Source: Streptomyces sp. RPA4-2
GTDB taxonomy: Bacteria; Actinomycetota; Actinomycetes; Streptomycetales; Streptomycetaceae
Assembly: GCF_012273515.2 (NCBI RefSeq)
Contig: NZ_CP050975.2
Span: forward strand, 7,316,001 to 7,380,000
DNA length: 64,000 nt
Direction of reading: 5' to 3'
The position numbers and the translations under genes were made by a program. Shown here one piece after another: positions 4,912 through 40,534 of the stretch. The notes below the pieces were generated by a model. That model did not search any database. It had not been told where the DNA came from and saw only the letters and a list, made by a program, of their open reading frames with translations. The stretch's first letter is position 1. Each line of letters starts with the position of its first letter.

Positions 4912-5961
4912 ATGCCAGCACCCACGCACGTCACCAGCCGCCGAGGAATGCTCCTCGGGACCGCCGCCGTCTCGGCCGGCGCCCTCCTGACCGGCTGCAC
5001 CTCCAACGACACCAAGGACGAGAAGCCGGCCTCGAACGACCGGCCGGCCGCCGACGACAAGCCCGGCAAGCACGTCACCATCGGCTTCGCGGGCCCGCAG
5101 GCCGACCACGGCTGGCTCAACGCGATCAACGACAACGCCAAGAGCCGCGCGAAGAAGTACTCGGACGTCACCCTGGAGATCACCGAGGGCTCCAACGACA
5201 CCGCGGCGCAGATCGGCCAGATCGAGACACTGATCAACAAGAAGGTCGACGTGCTGGTGGTGCTGCCCGCCGACGGCAAGGCGCTCACGCAGGTCGGACT
5301 GAAGGCGATGCGCGCCGGAATCCCCGTCGTCAACCTCGACCGGATCTTCAACTCCCCGCAGGCGTACCGCTGCTGGATCGGCGGTGACAACTACGGCATG
5401 GGCCTCAGCGCCGGTCGCTACATCGGCGAGCAGCTCAAGGACAAGCAGGGCGCCCGGGTCATCGAGCTGGCCGGTCTCGACAACCTGGAGCTGACCAAAC
5501 AGCGCACCGAGGGCTTCGACGCGGCTCTGAAGAACTACCCGAACATCAAGAAGGTGGCCCGCCAGGCCGCCGAGTTCACCGTCGAGTCCGGTCAGGCCAA
5601 GATGTCCCAGCTCCTCCAGGCCCAGCCGAAGTTCGACGCCCTGTGGAACCACGACGACGACCAGGGCGTGGGCGCGCTGCGCGCGATCGAGCAGGCCGGC
5701 CGTGACGACTTCCTGATGGTGGGCGGCGCGGGCGCGCTCTCCGCCTTCCAGGCCATCGAGGCCGGCAACAGTGTCCTGAAGGCCACCGTCCTGTATCCGC
5801 CGACCATGGCGGCGTCCGCGATCGACCTGGCCCGCGCCCTCGGTCAGGGCAAGGGGGTGGGCGGCCTCGCCGAGTTCGAGATCCCGGCCTCGATCACGCT
5901 CTACTCCGCCGTCGTCGACAAGGACAACGTCGGCCAGTACATGTCCACCGGCTTCAAGTGA
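4912..5961 (+). CDS. Sugar-binding lipoprotein of the ABC importer
   Basis: A 349-residue periplasmic-binding-protein-like lipoprotein (Peripla_BP_4/RbsB class) that should capture the sugar outside the cell. The N-terminus has twin arginines (R10 R11), a hydrophobic stretch and the lipobox LTGC with Cys29, followed by an acidic/basic linker to about residue 55. The body shows the family pattern TIGFAGPQADHGWLNAINDN and IETLINKKVDVLVVLPADG. The ATG at 4912 lies 20 bases after the permease stop. The same frame is open far upstream into the ATPase, but that part is antisense noise. Ligand could be a pentose, inositol or a keto-sugar; the sequence does not decide. Confidence 0.94.
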   Translation: MPAPTHVTSRRGMLLGTAAVSAGALLTGCTSNDTKDEKPASNDRPAADDKPGKHVTIGFAGPQADHGWLNAINDNAKSRAKKYSDVTLEITEGSNDTAAQIGQIETLINKKVDVLVVLPADGKALTQVGLKAMRAGIPVVNLDRIFNSPQAYRCWIGGDNYGMGLSAGRYIGEQLKDKQGARVIELAGLDNLELTKQRTEGFDAALKNYPNIKKVARQAAEFTVESGQAKMSQLLQAQPKFDALWNHDDDQGVGALRAIEQAGRDDFLMVGGAGALSAFQAIEAGNSVLKATVLYPPTMAASAIDLARALGQGKGVGGLAEFEIPASITLYSAVVDKDNVGQYMSTGFK

Positions 5962-33638: not shown

Positions 33639-34574
33639 TCAGGGGCGCCGCCCACTCTCCGGTACCACTGCCGGCACCCGTGTCACGATCTCGTCCACCA
33701 GCCACCGCGCGACCCCCTGCGGGTAGGGCTGGGGCAGGCTGAGCACGACGTGGTTGGTGCCCACGCCGATGAGGCCGGTGACCGCGGCCCGGGTGGCGGC
33801 GGGGTCGTCGTAGGAGACGACGACCTGCACAGACCGGGTGATCTCACGCGGGTCGCGCCCGATCTCCGCGCAGTGGGCGTCCAGGACCCGGCCGCGCTCG
33901 GCGACGAACTCCACGCCGTTGTGCGGCGGTCCGGGGACGTTCCAGATGTCGGCCCGCTCGGCGACCAGCCGCAGCAGCCGCGTCCCCCAGCCTCCGATCA
34001 GGAGCGGGGGCCCCGGCCGCTGCACGGGCTTGGGCTCGTTGTACGTACCCCGGAGCCGGTAGTGGCGTCCCTCGAAGTCGAAGACGTCCTCGGTCCACAT
34101 GCGCTTCAGGATCTCGACGGTCTCCGCGAGCCGGGCGACGCCCTCACCGGGCGGGACGAGTGTCAGCCCGTACGCCGCGTACTCCGCGACCGCCGGATTC
34201 TCGCCGGCGATCCCGCCCGCGCCGGGAGGCTGCCGGGTGCCGCCGACGCCGATGCCCATCACGAGCCGCCCGCCGGAGATCACGTCCACGGTCGAGGCGA
34301 TCTTCCCGAGGACGGCGGGCGGGCGGACACGGTTGCTGGTGACGAGCAGTCCGAGCCGCAGCCGCTCGGTCTGGGCGGCGAGAGCGCTGAGCAGCGTCCA
34401 GCTCTCGTGCATCTGGCCGCTCCTGGGCCCGCGCAACGGAAGCAGATGGTCCCAGAGCCAGGCGTCCTCGATCTCGGGGAGGGCGTCGGCCTCCCGCCAG
34501 ACTCGGCGGATGTCCTCGTAGGAGACGTGCATGGGGGTGGTCTTGATGCCGAAGCGCACGCGCTGTTCGCTCAT
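33639..34574 (-). CDS. LLM-class flavin/F420-dependent oxidoreductase
   Basis: A 311-residue luciferase-like monooxygenase fold protein (FGIKTTPMHVSYEDIRRVWRE, LWDHLLPLRGP, SGGRLVMGIGVGGTRQPPGA, PLLIGGWGTRLLRL). Such proteins use F420 or FMN to oxidise or reduce small organic molecules. The ATG at 34574 sits seven bases after a -10 box, so the message is probably leaderless; an in-frame TTG at 34592 lacks a ribosome site. It is divergent from a MarR regulator that likely controls it. Confidence 0.9.
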   Translation of the reverse strand: MSEQRVRFGIKTTPMHVSYEDIRRVWREADALPEIEDAWLWDHLLPLRGPRSGQMHESWTLLSALAAQTERLRLGLLVTSNRVRPPAVLGKIASTVDVISGGRLVMGIGVGGTRQPPGAGGIAGENPAVAEYAAYGLTLVPPGEGVARLAETVEILKRMWTEDVFDFEGRHYRLRGTYNEPKPVQRPGPPLLIGGWGTRLLRLVAERADIWNVPGPPHNGVEFVAERGRVLDAHCAEIGRDPREITRSVQVVVSYDDPAATRAAVTGLIGVGTNHVVLSLPQPYPQGVARWLVDEIVTRVPAVVPESGRRP

Positions 34575-34579
34575 GTCGA

Positions 34580-34616
34580 TCAGCCTAGCCAATCATCAGG
34601 AGGACTGACAATCAGT
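34580..34616 (-). promoter_or_regulatory. Divergent promoter and MarR operator
   Basis: On the reverse strand TTGTCA (34611-34606), an 18-base spacer and TAGGCT (34587-34582) form a good streptomycete promoter reading into the LLM gene. The inverted repeat ACTGA-CAA-TCAGT (34604-34616) covers its -35 box and lies 19 bases before the marR start, fitting repression by the adjacent MarR protein. Confidence 0.6.
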
Positions 34617-34634
34617 ACTGGGTACAGTGCGGGC

Positions 34635-35132
34635 ATGACCGGCGAGCAGCTCCCTGGATCCCCTGCGCCCCTTGTCCCTCCCACGCCTCCTGCGGCCCCC
34701 GTGCCCCTTGAGGCCAGGCTCGGCTATCTCCTCAAGCACGCACAGCAACGGCTGACGCGGGCATCCGCCGAGGCGCTGGCACCCTTCGGGGTGGACGGGC
34801 ACGAGCTGGCGGTACTGGCGGTGCTGGCCGCCGAGTACCCGCTGTCGCAGGTCGAGGTCGCGGGACGGCTCGGCGTCGACCGCACCACGATGGTGGCGCT
34901 CGTCGACGGACTGGAGGACCATGGGCTCGTCGAGCGCCGCCGCAGCCCCCAGGACCGTCGCAAGAACATCGTGGAGCTGACCGCGGCGGGCCACGACTGC
35001 CTGCGACAGGCCGAACTGGCTCGGCGGGAGACGGAACGGCGCTTCCTCGCTCCGCTGGGCGAGGAGGCGGGGGCCGCGCTCGTGCGGGCGCTGCGGGTTC
35101 TGGTGGTGGGGGTGCGCGAGGGGGAGGAGTGA
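34635..35132 (+). CDS. MarR-family transcriptional regulator
   Basis: A 165-residue winged-helix repressor. After a Pro-rich head, the dimer helices and the wHTH (YPLSQVEVAGRLGVDRTTMVALVDGLEDHGLVERRRSPQDRR, about 65-105) match the family, including the conserved wing Asp-Arg. It is divergent from an LLM oxidoreductase with a palindrome between them, the usual arrangement for local repression. No ribosome site precedes the ATG, so the transcript may be leaderless. Confidence 0.92.
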   Translation: MTGEQLPGSPAPLVPPTPPAAPVPLEARLGYLLKHAQQRLTRASAEALAPFGVDGHELAVLAVLAAEYPLSQVEVAGRLGVDRTTMVALVDGLEDHGLVERRRSPQDRRKNIVELTAAGHDCLRQAELARRETERRFLAPLGEEAGAALVRALRVLVVGVREGEE

Positions 35133-35363
35133 CGGTGTGAGGGGGATCGCCGGACGGGTGCGTCCCGCTCGCCCGAGTTGAGCGGCCGCGTGAACTTTTG
35201 GCGACCGATCCGTCACTCAAGGTGGCTGACGCGATCCACCCGCGTCCGGCCCCGCGCAGCCGCTCCCAGGGCCTGGATATGCAGGTGAAAGGCACCCTGA
35301 AACCTTGGTATTGTTGTGCGTGTCGCCGCGGGGAACACCTCCCGGCCAGGCGGCAGACACCTG

Positions 35364-35451
35364 GTCCGGGTGGCGGAATGGCAGACGCGCTAGCTTGAGG
35401 TGCTAGTGCCCTTTATCGGGCGTGGGGGTTCAAGTCCCCCCTCGGACACCA
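35364..35451 (+). tRNA. tRNA-Leu (anticodon GAG)
   Basis: An 88-base class II tRNA with encoded CCA. The acceptor GTCCGGG (35364-35370) pairs with CTCGGAC (35441-35447). The anticodon stem CTAGC/GCTAG holds the loop TTGAGGT with anticodon GAG at 35397-35399, a long variable arm follows, and GGTTCAAGT is the T-loop. It reads CUC/CUU codons. The gene borders a small cluster on the opposite strand; no second copy of its 3' end, which would mark an integrated element, is seen in the window. Confidence 0.97.
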
Positions 35452-35472
35452 GCAGTACCAGAGATCAGTTGG

Positions 35473-35493
35473 GACCCCACTTCGCGTGGGGTC
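35473..35493 (+). terminator. Terminator after tRNA-Leu
   Basis: GACCCCAC (35473-35480) pairs with GTGGGGTC (35486-35493) around TTCGC, 21 bases after the tRNA, followed by TTCC. Confidence 0.8.
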
Positions 35494-35580
35494 TTCCGCG
35501 TTCCGGGGTCCGGACAGGAGCCCTGATCGCGACAGGGCGACGAGGCGGACGCTCCCACGAGGGCACGGCGGGCGGCGGTC

Positions 35581-37653
35581 TCACCGGGCGCTGGACGCGG
35601 TGCAGAGCCGGCGTTGTTCCTGGAGTTCGGTGGTGTCGGCGTCCGGCAGCGTGAGTGCCTGGTCGAAGTCCTTGAGGGCCAGGTCGGGGCGGTCGGCGGC
35701 CAGGTGGGCGATGCCGCGGTTGAGCAGGATGTCGGGGTCGTCCCCGACGGCTTCGAGTGCGGCGGTCAGGTCCGCGACGGCCATCTCCGGGCGCGACTGT
35801 TGGAAGTGCACCACGGCCCGGTTGATCAGCGCGGCCGGGTAGCGTGGGTCCTTTGCGAGCGCTCCGTCGAAAGCGGCCAGGGCGCGGTCGAGTTGATCGC
35901 GTTGCAGGAGGACCGTGCCGCTCAGGCAAAGGAGTTGGAGTTCTCCGGGGTGAAGCCTCAGTCCGGTGGCCGTGTCGGTCTCGGCCGCGTCGAGATCGCC
36001 GGTTTCCAGCAGCAGTTCCGCTCGGGCGATCCGGGTGTCGAGGTCGCGCGGTTCCATCTCGAGTACGAGGGTGAAGTCCCCGAGGGCCCCTCGGTGGTCG
36101 CCGACCTGCGCGCGGGCGGTGCCGCGGTTGTAGTACAGCTCGGGGAACGGAGGCGCGAGCCGCACCGCGCGGTCGTAGTCGGCCAGGGCGGCGTCGAAGT
36201 CGCCGCGGTCCCGCGAGATCCTGGCCCGCTCCGAGAGGTAGTCGGTGTAGTACGGGTCGATGTCGACGAGTCGGGTGTAGTCGGCGTGCGCCTCGTCCGG
36301 CCTGCCGAGCGCCACCAGCAGTCGGGCCCGGTTGTAGAGCAGTTGGGAGCGGTGCAGGGCCCACTGGTCGTCGTCGAGCCGCTCGTCGAGCCGGGTGATG
36401 CATGACTCCACGAGCGCCAGGGCGTGATGCAGGTTGCCGCGGTGCATCTCGACGAGTGCCAGGCCGTTGTCGTGGAAGACGCTGTACGTCAGTCGTTCGG
36501 CCGGGTCCGGGAGGATTCCCGCGATGGCGACGGCGTTGTGCTGCCACTGGACGGCCAGTTCGTGGTCGCGGGGCTTCAGGAAACGGGTGTGCAGCATCGC
36601 GATGGCGTAGCTGGTCATCATGTGGATCTTGGGATCGGTGAAGCGGCGCAGCAGGCTCTGGTACAGCTCCATGGACTGTTCCAGGCGTCCGACCGGGATG
36701 CAGGCCGCAGCCGCTTCGCGGGTGAACTCCCAGTAGTCGTGTTCGTGCGAGCGCGGGTCGGTCAGGCCGCGGCCACGCAGGCCGAGGTCGACCACGGCGG
36801 CGGAGAAGCCGGTGGCCACGGCGTGGCGCTGGGCCGCGAGCAGGGCGGCCCGTCCCGCCCCGGCGGGGTCGCTGCCGTGTTCGCGGTGGTGCGCGATGGC
36901 GCCCACGCGGATGCCCCATGTGGCCGTCCGTTCAAGGGAGTCGGCACGCCGGTCGTGGAGGCGGGCGCGGGTCCGCGGGTCGGTGCGCTGGTATCCGTCG
37001 AGGGCGCGGGGGTCGTCGTCGGTGCAGTCGCCTTCGACATGGACGGCGGCCCAGTCGCCGGGGCTCCGGTCTTCCACCGGCTGCTCGGGGGTGCGCGGGA
37101 CGGGCAGGACGGTCACGTCGGCCAGAGCGTCCTGGAGCTCTTCGGAGAGCGTGCCGCGGGTCGCCGAGACCACCACGCGCAGCCGGCGTGGGTCCGCACG
37201 GCGCAGAAGCAGGGCGATCAGTTCCTGTGTGGTGGCCTCGGCGGCGTGCGCCTCTTCGAAGGCGATCTCGAAGGCGGTGTCGCTGTGGATGCGCCGGGCG
37301 TATTCGAGCAGGAAGCCGACGATGCCCTGGCTCATGCAACGGACCCACCCGGCGCCGAAGAAGCGGGTGCGTTCCTCGTAGGGGGCGTCGTCGGCCAGGG
37401 TGCGCGGTGGCGGTCCGATGAGGTGGGCCAGCTCGGGCATCCCGTACAGCAGTGCCACGCGATGGTCCTCGACCAGGTCCGGCCAGCGCCGGTAGGCCTC
37501 GGGCAGAACGGCTCGTAGCACCGTGTCCACGCCGGTGTAGGGACCGCGCAGCCGCTGGTGGCAGCGGACCACGAGGGCCTTGCCGGTGTGGGCTGCGATG
37601 GCGCGCAGGCGGTCTTCGCGCCTGTCTCCGACGATCCGCAGATGGCCCGTCAT
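35581..37653 (-). CDS. TPR protein with degenerate NTPase-like domain, RiPP-like locus
   Basis: A 690-residue cytoplasmic protein. The N-terminal 190 residues resemble the ATPase part of STAND/AAA regulators: FEIAFEEAHAAEATTQELIALLLRR sits where a Walker B box is expected, followed by RLRVVVSATRG. No GxxxxGK[ST] P-loop is present; that region reads ALVVRCHQRLRGPYTG. A helical linker leads to at least eight tetratricopeptide repeats (about 370-680; AHADYTRLVDIDPYYTDYL, ALADYDRAVRLAPPFPELYYNRG). It is probably a scaffold or peptide-binding partner. Its ATG overlaps the stop of the M50 protease gene, so the two products are made together. Confidence 0.8.
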   Translation of the reverse strand: MTGHLRIVGDRREDRLRAIAAHTGKALVVRCHQRLRGPYTGVDTVLRAVLPEAYRRWPDLVEDHRVALLYGMPELAHLIGPPPRTLADDAPYEERTRFFGAGWVRCMSQGIVGFLLEYARRIHSDTAFEIAFEEAHAAEATTQELIALLLRRADPRRLRVVVSATRGTLSEELQDALADVTVLPVPRTPEQPVEDRSPGDWAAVHVEGDCTDDDPRALDGYQRTDPRTRARLHDRRADSLERTATWGIRVGAIAHHREHGSDPAGAGRAALLAAQRHAVATGFSAAVVDLGLRGRGLTDPRSHEHDYWEFTREAAAACIPVGRLEQSMELYQSLLRRFTDPKIHMMTSYAIAMLHTRFLKPRDHELAVQWQHNAVAIAGILPDPAERLTYSVFHDNGLALVEMHRGNLHHALALVESCITRLDERLDDDQWALHRSQLLYNRARLLVALGRPDEAHADYTRLVDIDPYYTDYLSERARISRDRGDFDAALADYDRAVRLAPPFPELYYNRGTARAQVGDHRGALGDFTLVLEMEPRDLDTRIARAELLLETGDLDAAETDTATGLRLHPGELQLLCLSGTVLLQRDQLDRALAAFDGALAKDPRYPAALINRAVVHFQQSRPEMAVADLTAALEAVGDDPDILLNRGIAHLAADRPDLALKDFDQALTLPDADTTELQEQRRLCTASSAR

Positions 37654-38867
37654 GCGAGTTCTACCTCCGGTGAAGAGGACGTGAGGGAGTGGGCTGACTT
37701 CTGGTTCCGGCGTTTTCTCCGGGACAGCACGACGAGTGCGACGATCTGGGCCACGTTCATGCACAGGGAGAGCACAGCGTCCCAAAAGGACGCGTCCACG
37801 CCGCCGGAGCCGAGGGCGCGCCCGGCAATGCTGACGTAGTTGACCGTCACGGGGACGCTGACGAAGACGGTGATCGCGGCGAACGCGCCATATCCCAGGA
37901 CGATGAAAGGACCGTAGAACGCGCCGACTCGGCGATCACGGGGCGTCCATTTCTCCTCGTCCACGATACGGTCCGGGCGATTCATGAAACGCCACACACG
38001 ATTCTTCATCAGGGTCATGCCCGCGTCGTGAAGGTCGTAGCAGTTCCAAGCGGTGGCCGCCACATAATAGAGATCGGTTCGCAAGTAGAGCTGGAGCTGC
38101 CACAGCATGCGAACCGCGACGGTGAATGCCAGTCCGAGACAGAGTCGCCCGGCCAACGAGAACGAACCGCCCGGATTCCGCGTCAGATCGGCGACGAGCC
38201 CGAGCACCGCGAAAACGACGCCGTCGCAGACCATTCCGGCGAAGAACGGGAGATAGCGCTTCGCCCGGGGAACGCTGAGCAGTCCGTTGATCTGGGTTTC
38301 GGCGACGATGTACGTCAGACGGTTGCTCACACTCAAGCGCGTGGGCAGACCGAGACGCCGGCCGGCAAGAATGTGGAAGCCCTCGTGCAGCAGCAGAAGC
38401 GGCACCTGGCCGAGGGTGATGACCAGCTGGACCACGAGGAGGGAGTGGGTGAAGAAGATCTGCCCGGGATGCGGTGCCAGGTCCGGCCGCGCGATCACGG
38501 CCCACGTCCAGCCGCCGACCACGGCGCCGTACACCACCCACGCCGGCGCAGAGAAGGCGGCTCGGCCCAGGCCGCGCAGACGTACCTGCGGGGCGGGGCC
38601 GGCCGGCCGCGCCCGGTCCTCCTCGTCGATGAAGCCGAGCTCGCGCAGAGTGGTCACGAAATCCTGGAGATCGGCGTCCTCTCCGAAAGTGGTCTCGTAC
38701 CAGTCGGCGGCGGCGCCGAGTGTCATTCCCCGCATGAGCTGCCGCAGCAACTCCGCGCCGTCGGCCGGGAAAACCGCGTAGGAACCGGTGTCCAGGCGGC
38801 CGACCACCACCTCGTCGCCTTCGGGAACGAAACTCAGTTCGTGGAAAACGAGGCCGTCACCGGCCAC
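37650..38867 (-). CDS. RRE (PqqD-like)-M50 membrane metalloprotease
   Basis: A 405-residue fusion. Residues 1-85 look like a PqqD-type RiPP recognition element (EVVVGRLDTGSYAVFPADGAELLRQL, TLRELGFIDEED), which in peptide-modifying enzymes binds the leader of a precursor. The remainder is a multi-pass membrane protein with the zinc motif HEGFH at 161-165, as in site-2-protease-like M50 peptidases of YydH type. It should cleave or export a small peptide. GGAGGAGG precedes the GTG start. The gene follows the small peptide gene across a terminator hairpin and is translationally coupled to the TPR gene. Confidence 0.85.
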   Translation of the reverse strand: MAGDGLVFHELSFVPEGDEVVVGRLDTGSYAVFPADGAELLRQLMRGMTLGAAADWYETTFGEDADLQDFVTTLRELGFIDEEDRARPAGPAPQVRLRGLGRAAFSAPAWVVYGAVVGGWTWAVIARPDLAPHPGQIFFTHSLLVVQLVITLGQVPLLLLHEGFHILAGRRLGLPTRLSVSNRLTYIVAETQINGLLSVPRAKRYLPFFAGMVCDGVVFAVLGLVADLTRNPGGSFSLAGRLCLGLAFTVAVRMLWQLQLYLRTDLYYVAATAWNCYDLHDAGMTLMKNRVWRFMNRPDRIVDEEKWTPRDRRVGAFYGPFIVLGYGAFAAITVFVSVPVTVNYVSIAGRALGSGGVDASFWDAVLSLCMNVAQIVALVVLSRRKRRNQKSAHSLTSSSPEVELA

Positions 38868-38902
38868 AGGCCCTCCTCCAGCGGAATTCCGGATAAAAGA
38901 CC

Positions 38903-38929
38903 CGGGTGCGCCGACAGGCGGCGCACCCG
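38903..38929 (-). terminator. Intrinsic terminator/attenuator between peptide and protease genes
   Basis: CGGGTGCGCC (38903-38912) and GGCGCACCCG (38920-38929) form a perfect ten-base stem with a seven-base loop. Reading leftward it is followed by GGTCTTTTATCC, a T-rich tail. It lies 20 bases after the peptide stop and 35 before the protease start, so most transcripts should end here, giving excess peptide message over protease message. Confidence 0.85.
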
Positions 38930-38949
38930 AGCGTGGTAATGCGAAGCGA

Positions 38950-39069
38950 TCAGGCCTGGACGGAGTACGGGCACTGACAGGCGGCCGACGTCAGGCGCAC
39001 GTCGCCGGTGCGGCGCACCGCAATCTTCTTGGAGCCGGCCTTCTTACGCATGGCGACAGTCGACTTCAT
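38950..39069 (-). CDS. 39-residue candidate precursor peptide (RiPP-like)
   Basis: A small open reading frame with GAAAGGA five bases before the ATG. About 90 percent of third codon positions are G or C, as expected for a real gene here. The product begins MKSTVAMRKKAGSKKIAVRR, is strongly basic over residues 8-25, and ends TSAACQCPYSVQA. Leader plus short Cys-rich tail, with an RRE-M50 protease directly downstream, is the layout of a ribosomally made, protease-processed peptide; the active part may be the nine residues CQCPYSVQA. No radical-SAM, lanthionine or cyclodehydratase gene is nearby. Function (signal, bacteriocin, redox peptide) is unknown. Confidence 0.8.
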   Translation of the reverse strand: MKSTVAMRKKAGSKKIAVRRTGDVRLTSAACQCPYSVQA

Positions 39070-39948
39070 GACGGTCCTTTCTCGACGGTTGGCGCACCGA
39101 CCGGCGGTCGGCGGCAATCAAAGATCTTCCAGCCGGACCGCATGAGCAAGGTTCGATCGCGCCAATCAGATCACCCGGGACGTGCGTCTCGAGGGCAGGG
39201 TGCGCGGGAAAGCGTTTTCGCTCTCCGTGTCGCCGCCGATGCCGCTGTTCACCGCTGATTCCGTCGCACGTACCCCATCGACATCGTTGCCAGGCGACAA
39301 CAGAAGCCTGTTTTCCCACCTGGGACCACGTGAAGTCCGTGTACGGAATCGGAAATCCGTCGGCGGCACCACAGAAAACGGAGCGCGTTCCGCCGGATTC
39401 CGCTTTTTTCGCACCCTGTTTTCCTCGGCCTAAGGGAGGGCAATGAAATCGCCAAAGGGGCCCCCGGCCATCTCCTGTGCGTCGCCCCCCCGGCCTCCTG
39501 TACCTGAAGGAGGACGACCACTTCCGGATATCGGACACGTCGACCGGACGACAGGGGGGTGTCGTCGGCCGCCCCGCCCTCTCCTCCGCTTCGGCTGTGG
39601 ACGTTCGCGCCGGCACCACCGCTCGGCTCGGGCCTCACCGGACCCGCGCCACGTACGGGCATGTCCCCGTCAGTCGACCGCTTTCGGGATCTTGCCGTCG
39701 TGGGACGACGCGCAGGCGGAACCGGACTTGTGGCAACCCCCGCGACCTGTTTCCGTCCGGGAGTGGGCGGGACGGGCTCACCGAGGGGGCCGGAGATCCC
39801 GGGACACCCAGCCCACACACTCGAGCGGCCGGGTGCGACCGGCCGTCGGCCTCGTCCTCGGTCGCTCCCGGCGCCATGAGCGCCGGAGCGGTCGACGGCG
39901 GATCCCGGTCGAACCGCCGTGGCCGATACGGGTCGCCGGAACCGGCCG
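39070..39948. other. Region without a confident gene upstream of the peptide gene
   Basis: 879 bases between the peptide gene and the HxlR gene. The first 370 bases are visibly richer in A and T than the flanks and should hold the peptide promoter. A leftward 82-codon frame at 39166-39414 has a fair GAGG site but low G/C third positions. Long frames to the right have no family resemblance. I see no repeat or tRNA fragment. Confidence 0.6.
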
Positions 39949-40452
39949 TCAGGAAAGTCGTTGTGACGGTTCCGGTCGAGGTCCAGGGGTGTGCCGGGCG
40001 CCCTGGGACCCCGAACGGGTCTCCTCCTCCAGTACGGTCACCAGTCCGCCCCCCTCAAGGGGCTCGCCGCACTGGGCGCAGACGACCCGCGTCTGCACAT
40101 CGGCACCGCACGTGTGTAGGAACCGTGGCGCGGGCGGCGGGTCCTGCAGGTGCCGAAGGCCCCATTCCCGGAGCCCGATCAGCACCGGCTCCAGTGCCTG
40201 CCCCGCGGCCGTCAGGTGGTACTCGAAGCGGGGAGGGCGGTCCTGGTACTGGCGCCGCTCCAGGATCCCCGCGGCCTCCAGGGATCTCAGCCGCTTGGTG
40301 AGAACGTCCCGCGGCGCTCCGGTGTTGGCGCGGATGTCGGCGTAGCGCCGGATTCCCATGAACACCTCGCGCAACACCAGGAGCGACCAGCGCTCTCCTA
40401 CGAGATCGAGGGTCCCGGCTATGGGGCAGGCGCGTGGCTGGGTGTCGGACAT
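39949..40452 (-). CDS. HxlR-family transcriptional regulator
   Basis: A 167-residue winged-helix regulator with the HxlR hallmark CPIAGTLDLVGERWSLLVLREVFMGIRRY and a wing DRPPRFEYHLTAAGQALEP. The C-terminal part contains Cys residues (HTCGADV, CAQCGEPL) that could bind a metal, an extra zinc-ribbon-like feature. It is divergent from a GlxA-type regulator gene with 82 bases between; AGTTGG and CGAACT in that gap could be half-sites. Confidence 0.9.
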   Translation of the reverse strand: MSDTQPRACPIAGTLDLVGERWSLLVLREVFMGIRRYADIRANTGAPRDVLTKRLRSLEAAGILERRQYQDRPPRFEYHLTAAGQALEPVLIGLREWGLRHLQDPPPAPRFLHTCGADVQTRVVCAQCGEPLEGGGLVTVLEEETRSGSQGARHTPGPRPEPSQRLS

Positions 40453-40534
40453 GCCGCGATCCTAGTTGGTTTGTTTTGCGAACTCACTGCGCATAGCATC
40501 GACCATAACCCCATGTCAGGTCCGGAGGCATTCG

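Follow-up and report, generated by a model that had tools for sequence, protein, structure and literature searches.

In daptide clusters, as far as the accessible part of their description goes (PMC10036551), a RiPP precursor recognition element (RRE; RiPP, ribosomally synthesised and post-translationally modified peptide) is fused to an intramembrane site-2 protease, and 302 of 483 such clusters fall in Actinomycetota. According to the portion of a second source that is available (PMC10885120), epipeptides (YydF/EpeX) involve an M50 protease, EpeP, that is thought to cut and export the small peptide, and the pearlin M50 proteases TglG and TmoG are membrane proteases that act on the precursor C-terminus, freeing a single modified amino acid. 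RRNPP quorum-sensing pairs are known from Firmicutes, and the search for their receptors covered proteins of 250-500 aa (PMC10075063). Here, we describe a compact three-gene cassette in a 64,000-nucleotide stretch of Streptomyces sp. RPA4-2 (NZ_CP050975.2, positions 7,316,001 to 7,380,000; the window), which belongs to a genome assembled as a single contig of 9.86 Mb. On the minus strand, a 39-codon peptide gene is followed by a gene for an RRE-M50 membrane protein and then by a gene for a TPR protein. The cassette likely follows RiPP logic stripped to its core to yield a small processed peptide. The unit recurs across actinobacteria, and its products are probably a class of small peptides not yet described. 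No description of it was found among the open-licence papers listed, judged by titles and the start of abstracts and searched with peptide strings as well.

Comparative searches show that the short gene accompanies the protease gene in many genomes. Aligning 17 proteases and scanning contigs with the resulting profile gave a first set of at least 60 loci among the matches listed. An upstream peptide gene is present in 59 of the 60 listed loci (61 genes in all), the sole exception being L031, from a metagenome-assembled genome labelled Deltaproteobacteria, where the contig edge lies inside the protease gene and leaves no upstream DNA. The second set, consisting of the best-scoring 29 loci from 200 sampled genomes of the family with the own genome excluded, holds a peptide gene in all 29 loci; it overlaps the first, and 18 of its 26 unique cores are new. 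Host records of the listed loci include Streptomyces, Kitasatospora, Nonomuraea, Actinoplanes, Micromonospora, Lentzea, Nocardia and others, together with two Ktedonobacter species. The sequence-only reading had staked its claim on a conserved short frame upstream of other such protease genes and on conserved amino acids, and both sets contain exactly these.

The leader pattern, composed after the loci had been inspected, gives 61 matches in the 700 nt preceding the protease gene and none elsewhere in the six frames of the same loci, 727,460 bp in all, a result that rules out a chance open reading frame (ORF). In the second set, it finds 30 peptides, each holding Tyr and Cys, within 800 nt of the protease in 27 loci; in the remaining two, a peptide whose leader falls just outside the pattern is present and, read by eye, carries Tyr and Cys too. 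Pooled over fourteen close peptide pairs (window-L003 left out for unequal length, L010 used twice), substitutions amount to 40.5 synonymous on about 346 sites and 26.5 non-synonymous on about 1,031, a per-site ratio of 0.22. Non-synonymous differences outnumber synonymous ones in 4 of the 14 pairs, and those four alone do not look constrained. A peptide profile run against the protein database returned 728 matches at E <= 1, and the 120 listed are all unnamed, hypothetical or uncharacterised except for one labelled transposase. All 120 hold Tyr and Cys, with the caveat that the search profile itself contained the Tyr. The six peptides tested match no NCBIfam model, nor does the peptide of the window match any model in Pfam.

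Between the peptide and protease genes lies a strong hairpin, which occurs in 51 of 60 cassettes (59 loci and the window). Such hairpins are present in 5 of 59 stretches taken at random and in 25 of 116 further gaps between same-strand genes; these gaps come from the analysis's own gene calls, some of them antisense. A scan requiring a T-run shows no enrichment (8/59 vs 7/59 controls), and because the enrichment appears only in the scan without a T-run, many of these hairpins are not classical terminators. The hairpin may act as an attenuator or as an mRNA end that favours the precursor mRNA, and it would thereby hold precursor mRNA above enzyme mRNA. A hairpin that follows a short ORF ahead of the next gene would also suit a regulatory leader ORF, acting by attenuation upstream of a protease operon and encoding no precursor. 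This explanation is very improbable, since it sits poorly with amino acids that are conserved in the leader and variable at the C-terminus, with tandem precursor genes of two to three copies in L021, L032, L109 and L112, and with the adjacent RRE fold.

Alignment of 58 peptides (A4) divides the product into two parts. Lys15, Arg19, Thr27 and Tyr35 are invariant, and Lys14, Ile16, Gly22 and Leu26 are kept in at least 90% of the sequences, while the tail past the RLT motif is highly variable, with 54 unique cores. A gene-encoded precursor with a conserved leader and a variable core, placed beside processing genes, has the makeup of a RiPP system. Tyr and Cys each occur in 61 of 61 first-set peptides; the first Tyr is the seventh or eighth residue past the leader Thr in 50 of them, and the Cys may stand before or after it. 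All 54 unique cores contain both residues, and no other residue is common to all. The core was not itself selected, because loci were picked by the protease and peptides by the leader. Even when the first three core residues are omitted, 51 of 54 tails keep Tyr and Cys; redistributing the residues among the tails 500 times gives 29.5 such tails on average and never more than 36.

The Tyr and Cys pattern also holds in L082, L093 and the distant L095, which has a drifted leader and the tail LYIPFFCGGGGWPF. L064 disagrees: its leader is RKISVRRTEPIKVTS, and both Tyr and Cys are missing from its tail. Its TPR-type cassette (L064:6779-10422, plasmid NZ_CP109482.1) is flanked on both sides by transposase genes. 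The emphasis that had been placed on a Cys-Gln-Cys tail therefore narrows: CxCPY is typical of the nearest relatives, but across loci only the Tyr plus at least one Cys recurs. Since the tail is hypervariable except for Tyr and Cys, it can be regarded as the diversified product, whose role is probably signalling or antagonism. Candidate roles for the two residues are a cross-link, a disulfide, metal binding and receptor contact.

Structurally, the protease joins two recognisable parts, both supported by the predicted structure. The N-terminal part had been read as a PqqD-like RRE; the Pfam match on the window's protein is sub-threshold (E 0.12), but the predicted structure agrees, and by this modelled fold the domain would be a leader-binding RRE of the RiPP kind. 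The C-terminal part combines the HExxH motif and a distal Asp in a membrane-helix fold, as site-2 (M50) proteases do, and the nearest named relatives of the protein are from Streptomyces. Several protease matches carry a '1 TGA' mark; recoding was rejected, as the TGA is the gene end in the two checked (L120, L123).

Taken together, the RRE fold and the conserved leader suggest a simple route to the product. The basic leader, KKIxVRKxG, would pair as an extra strand with the protease's N-terminal RRE. The fused site-2 protease would then cut in the membrane near the RLTS/Tyr junction, freeing a tail of about 5-20 residues outside the cell; no exporter gene recurs across the listed loci.

A fuller pathway, in which Tyr and Cys are cross-linked or altered before leader removal, either by the TPR/STAND protein or by an enzyme whose gene lies elsewhere in the genome, is a genuine but minority possibility. 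The recurrence of both residues in every unique core, and in far more trimmed tails than any shuffle gave, speaks for it and leaves room for modification by a protein outside the cassette, yet the nearest Tyr-Cys spacing (-6 to +5, and +16 in two) is loose for a single ring-forming enzyme. Possible tailoring enzymes adjoin some cassettes. A flavin-reductase-like family gene (Pfam label from a run on three members) occurs in 10 of 60 loci (L009, L011, L015, L017, L019, L022, L024, L026, L043 and L050), and in eight of the ten it starts no more than about 50 nt from the end of the TPR gene. In three Actinoplanes-type loci, a B12-binding radical SAM family gene lies directly upstream of the peptide gene, adjoining or slightly overlapping it (L046:3558-5762, L047:3559-5760, L048:2922-5807). 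The L047 protein, the one annotated by Pfam and NCBIfam, matches the NCBIfam model 'RiPP maturation radical SAM C-methyltransferase' best, with a score under the cut-off.

Against full modification, clustering of genes within 6 kb finds no family in more than seven listed loci beyond the protease, TPR, flavin reductase and B12-radical SAM families; relatives' neighbours were clustered and annotated in part, and some of the clustered families are antisense gene calls. Because accessory families recur in few loci, modification would be either an optional addition or a common step encoded elsewhere. The sequence-only reading had seen no classical modifying enzyme, which is borne out by the nine window ORFs and by the lack of a constant family, but needs qualifying for those relatives with possible tailoring enzymes.

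The TPR protein is the other constant partner. Clustering places its family in 54 of 60 listed loci, and the proteins of L008, L023, L046 and L053, miscalled in clustering, align in A2, so that at least 58 of 60 loci have it, as do all 29 of the second set. L039 has a 741-aa ORF in the same position, which was left out of the alignment, and the TPR gene of L060 looks broken. The predicted structure (pLDDT 93.7) is a long superhelix resembling OGT and designed TPRs, in a structure search dominated by TPR repeats. Asn 396, 441 and 509 are invariant in 40 TPR proteins and Asn 645 is kept in 39; Asn ladders in other TPR proteins bind extended peptides. Pfam reports TPR plus weak AAA_16/BTAD matches. 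Among the 40 members, 22 have a weak AAA_16 match (E <= 0.05), the window's own protein not being one of them, and despite this resemblance to STAND NTPases, Walker A (GxxxxGK[ST]) is absent from the first 150 residues of all 40, while GP[YF] is present in all 40. As an AAA_16/STAND relative without Walker A, the protein may bind extended peptide in its Asn-lined superhelix, acting as a chaperone for the precursor or as a sensor of it.

Alternatively, the cassette could be a signalling circuit: the freed Tyr/Cys tail would be sensed inside the cell by the TPR protein, its receptor, by analogy with the RRNPP systems of Firmicutes, in which membrane M50 proteases such as Eep trim the propeptides. 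This is unlikely on several grounds. The TPR protein has 690 aa, whereas RRNPP receptors were sought at 250-500 aa in the accessible text (PMC10075063), and Pfam detects neither a helix-turn-helix nor any other clear output domain in it. Structural matches to NprR and RapI tie with unrelated TPR proteins. Distance correlations over the 26 loci with both proteins aligned are no higher between core and TPR_C (0.46) than between core and M50 (0.47) and do not separate a receptor from a chaperone role. The likelihoods given here to peptide processing, Tyr/Cys modification and signalling overlap.

In the genus sample, the TPR type occurs in 3 of 61 genomes (own, G046 and G028). Of 396 genomes in the phylum sample, where up to four candidates from each were scored, 4 reach 1e-20: G000, G262 and G221 are of the TPR type by their partner, and G229 is of the ThiF type. 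In the family sample, 66 of 200 genomes reach 1e-60, with up to four matches per genome. There is also a sister system: a second RRE-M50 protein of the own genome, 30% identical, is encoded next to a ThiF-like gene. In five same-genus ThiF-type loci (the own genome's and four others), there are one to three short genes, read divergently, for [KR]IxIRPLDKxETT peptides; the pattern finds none in L065, L066 and L096, of eight ThiF-type loci, and no NCBIfam model matches the one ThiF-system peptide tested. The K/R-I-x-[VI]-R start common to both peptide kinds would fit strand docking on this type of RRE. Separately, L094 carries a distant RRE-M50 gene (L094:3294-4640, minus strand) that has no clear TPR or ThiF partner next to it and has a Crp-like regulator (by eye) upstream.

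More tentatively, these loci may represent a distinct actinobacterial class, also present in Ktedonobacter, in which the RRE of a site-2 protease delivers a Tyr/Cys tail to intramembrane cleavage and release. In this doubtful proposal, a pseudo-STAND TPR protein would be the constant partner, Tyr and Cys would become linked without a dedicated cassette enzyme, and related RRE-M50 proteins would run the ThiF-partnered peptide system.

The feature coordinates are collected in Table 1. All three genes lie where the sequence-only reading had placed them, and the ribosome site, the HEGFH protease motif and the overlap read as translational coupling of the TPR gene are confirmed as well; as a whole, that earlier interpretation is partly supported. 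The nine ORFs scanned around the cassette (26.5-45.4 kb) look ordinary and include a MarR regulator, a luciferase-like monooxygenase, an aldehyde dehydrogenase (opposite strand, at a distance of about 2 kb), an HxlR regulator, a DJ-1/AraC protein and a 2-oxoglutarate dehydrogenase, with no transporter or RiPP-modifying enzyme among them. A tRNA-Leu(gag) at 35364-35451 is the sole Rfam match within 34000-40500, and PADLOC returned nothing meaningful. Near the cassettes of relatives, LuxR-type STAND regulators (by eye) lie upstream in L027, L029, L035 and L054 and downstream in L044, L059 and L061, and SARP-type regulators (by eye) occur in L036, L049, L050, L052 and L053.

Table 1. Features of the cassette in the window, with a ThiF-type locus for comparison (L063 row in its own coordinates)
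Feature	Coordinates	Strand	Remarks
Precursor peptide gene	38950..39069	-	39 codons + stop; coding 38953-39069, stop 38950-38952; translation MKSTVAMRKKAGSKKIAVRRTGDVRLTSAACQCPYSVQA
Ribosome binding site of peptide gene	39075..39083	-	GAGAAAGGA, by sequence
Leader motif, residues 14-27	38989..39030	-	KKIAVRRTGDVRLT; alignment A4; putative RRE docking strand
Core, residues 28-39	38953..38988	-	SAACQCPYSVQA; holds Tyr and Cys
GC-rich strong hairpin, then CTTTT	38900..38932	-	between peptide stop and protease start
RRE-M50 membrane protein, site-2 protease like	37650..38867	-	405 aa, GTG start
RRE domain, residues 1-85	38613..38867	-	bbb-aaa in predicted structure
HEGFH zinc-protease motif, residues 161-165	38373..38387	-	H161, E162 and H165 invariant in 44 sequences
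Asp265	38073..38075	-	invariant in 44 sequences; putative third zinc ligand
TPR partner	35581..37653	-	690 aa; ATGA overlap with protease gene stop
N-terminal AAA_16/STAND-like domain, ~residues 1-230 of TPR protein	36964..37653	-	without Walker A
ThiF-type locus L063	5405-8037; ~5045-5281	+; -	RRE-M50/ThiF-like pair; divergent short gene; likewise L083, L084, L085, L086

If the proposed processing is correct, the cassette would be a very small RiPP-like pathway that could readily be rebuilt in laboratory Streptomyces, and it would allow a direct test of an RRE steering an intramembrane protease. The retention of Tyr and Cys in an otherwise free tail offers a sharp chemical clue, resolvable by one mass spectrum.

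Compared with known systems, the cassette shares single elements with each. Like RRNPP pairs, it has a propeptide gene close to a TPR protein gene, but the RRE-protease gene stands between them and the TPR protein is larger, with a Walker-A-less AAA_16-like domain. Pearlin proteases likewise act in the membrane on a precursor C-terminus, as proposed here; the proposed product, however, is a variable peptide, and none of the nine ORFs scanned is a gene for a peptide ligase. With epipeptides, the cassette has in common an M50 protease paired with a small peptide, in the available part of PMC10885120, but no radical SAM epimerase is encoded among the nine ORFs around the window cassette, and the protease of the cassette carries a predicted RRE. 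Daptides share an N-terminal RRE on a site-2 protease (here by predicted fold) and short adjacent precursors, in the text accessible from PMC10036551. An ordinary daptide cluster was nevertheless rejected: the ELExMEAP motif occurs in 0 of 61 peptides and a C-terminal Thr in 0 of 54 unique cores, the partner is a TPR protein, and no aminotransferase, alcohol dehydrogenase or methyltransferase is found among the nine ORFs. The earlier view, which did not recognise the cassette as a described class, needs correcting for the protease itself, whose RRE-site-2-protease fusion is already described in daptides; the daptide protease is the nearest described architecture found.

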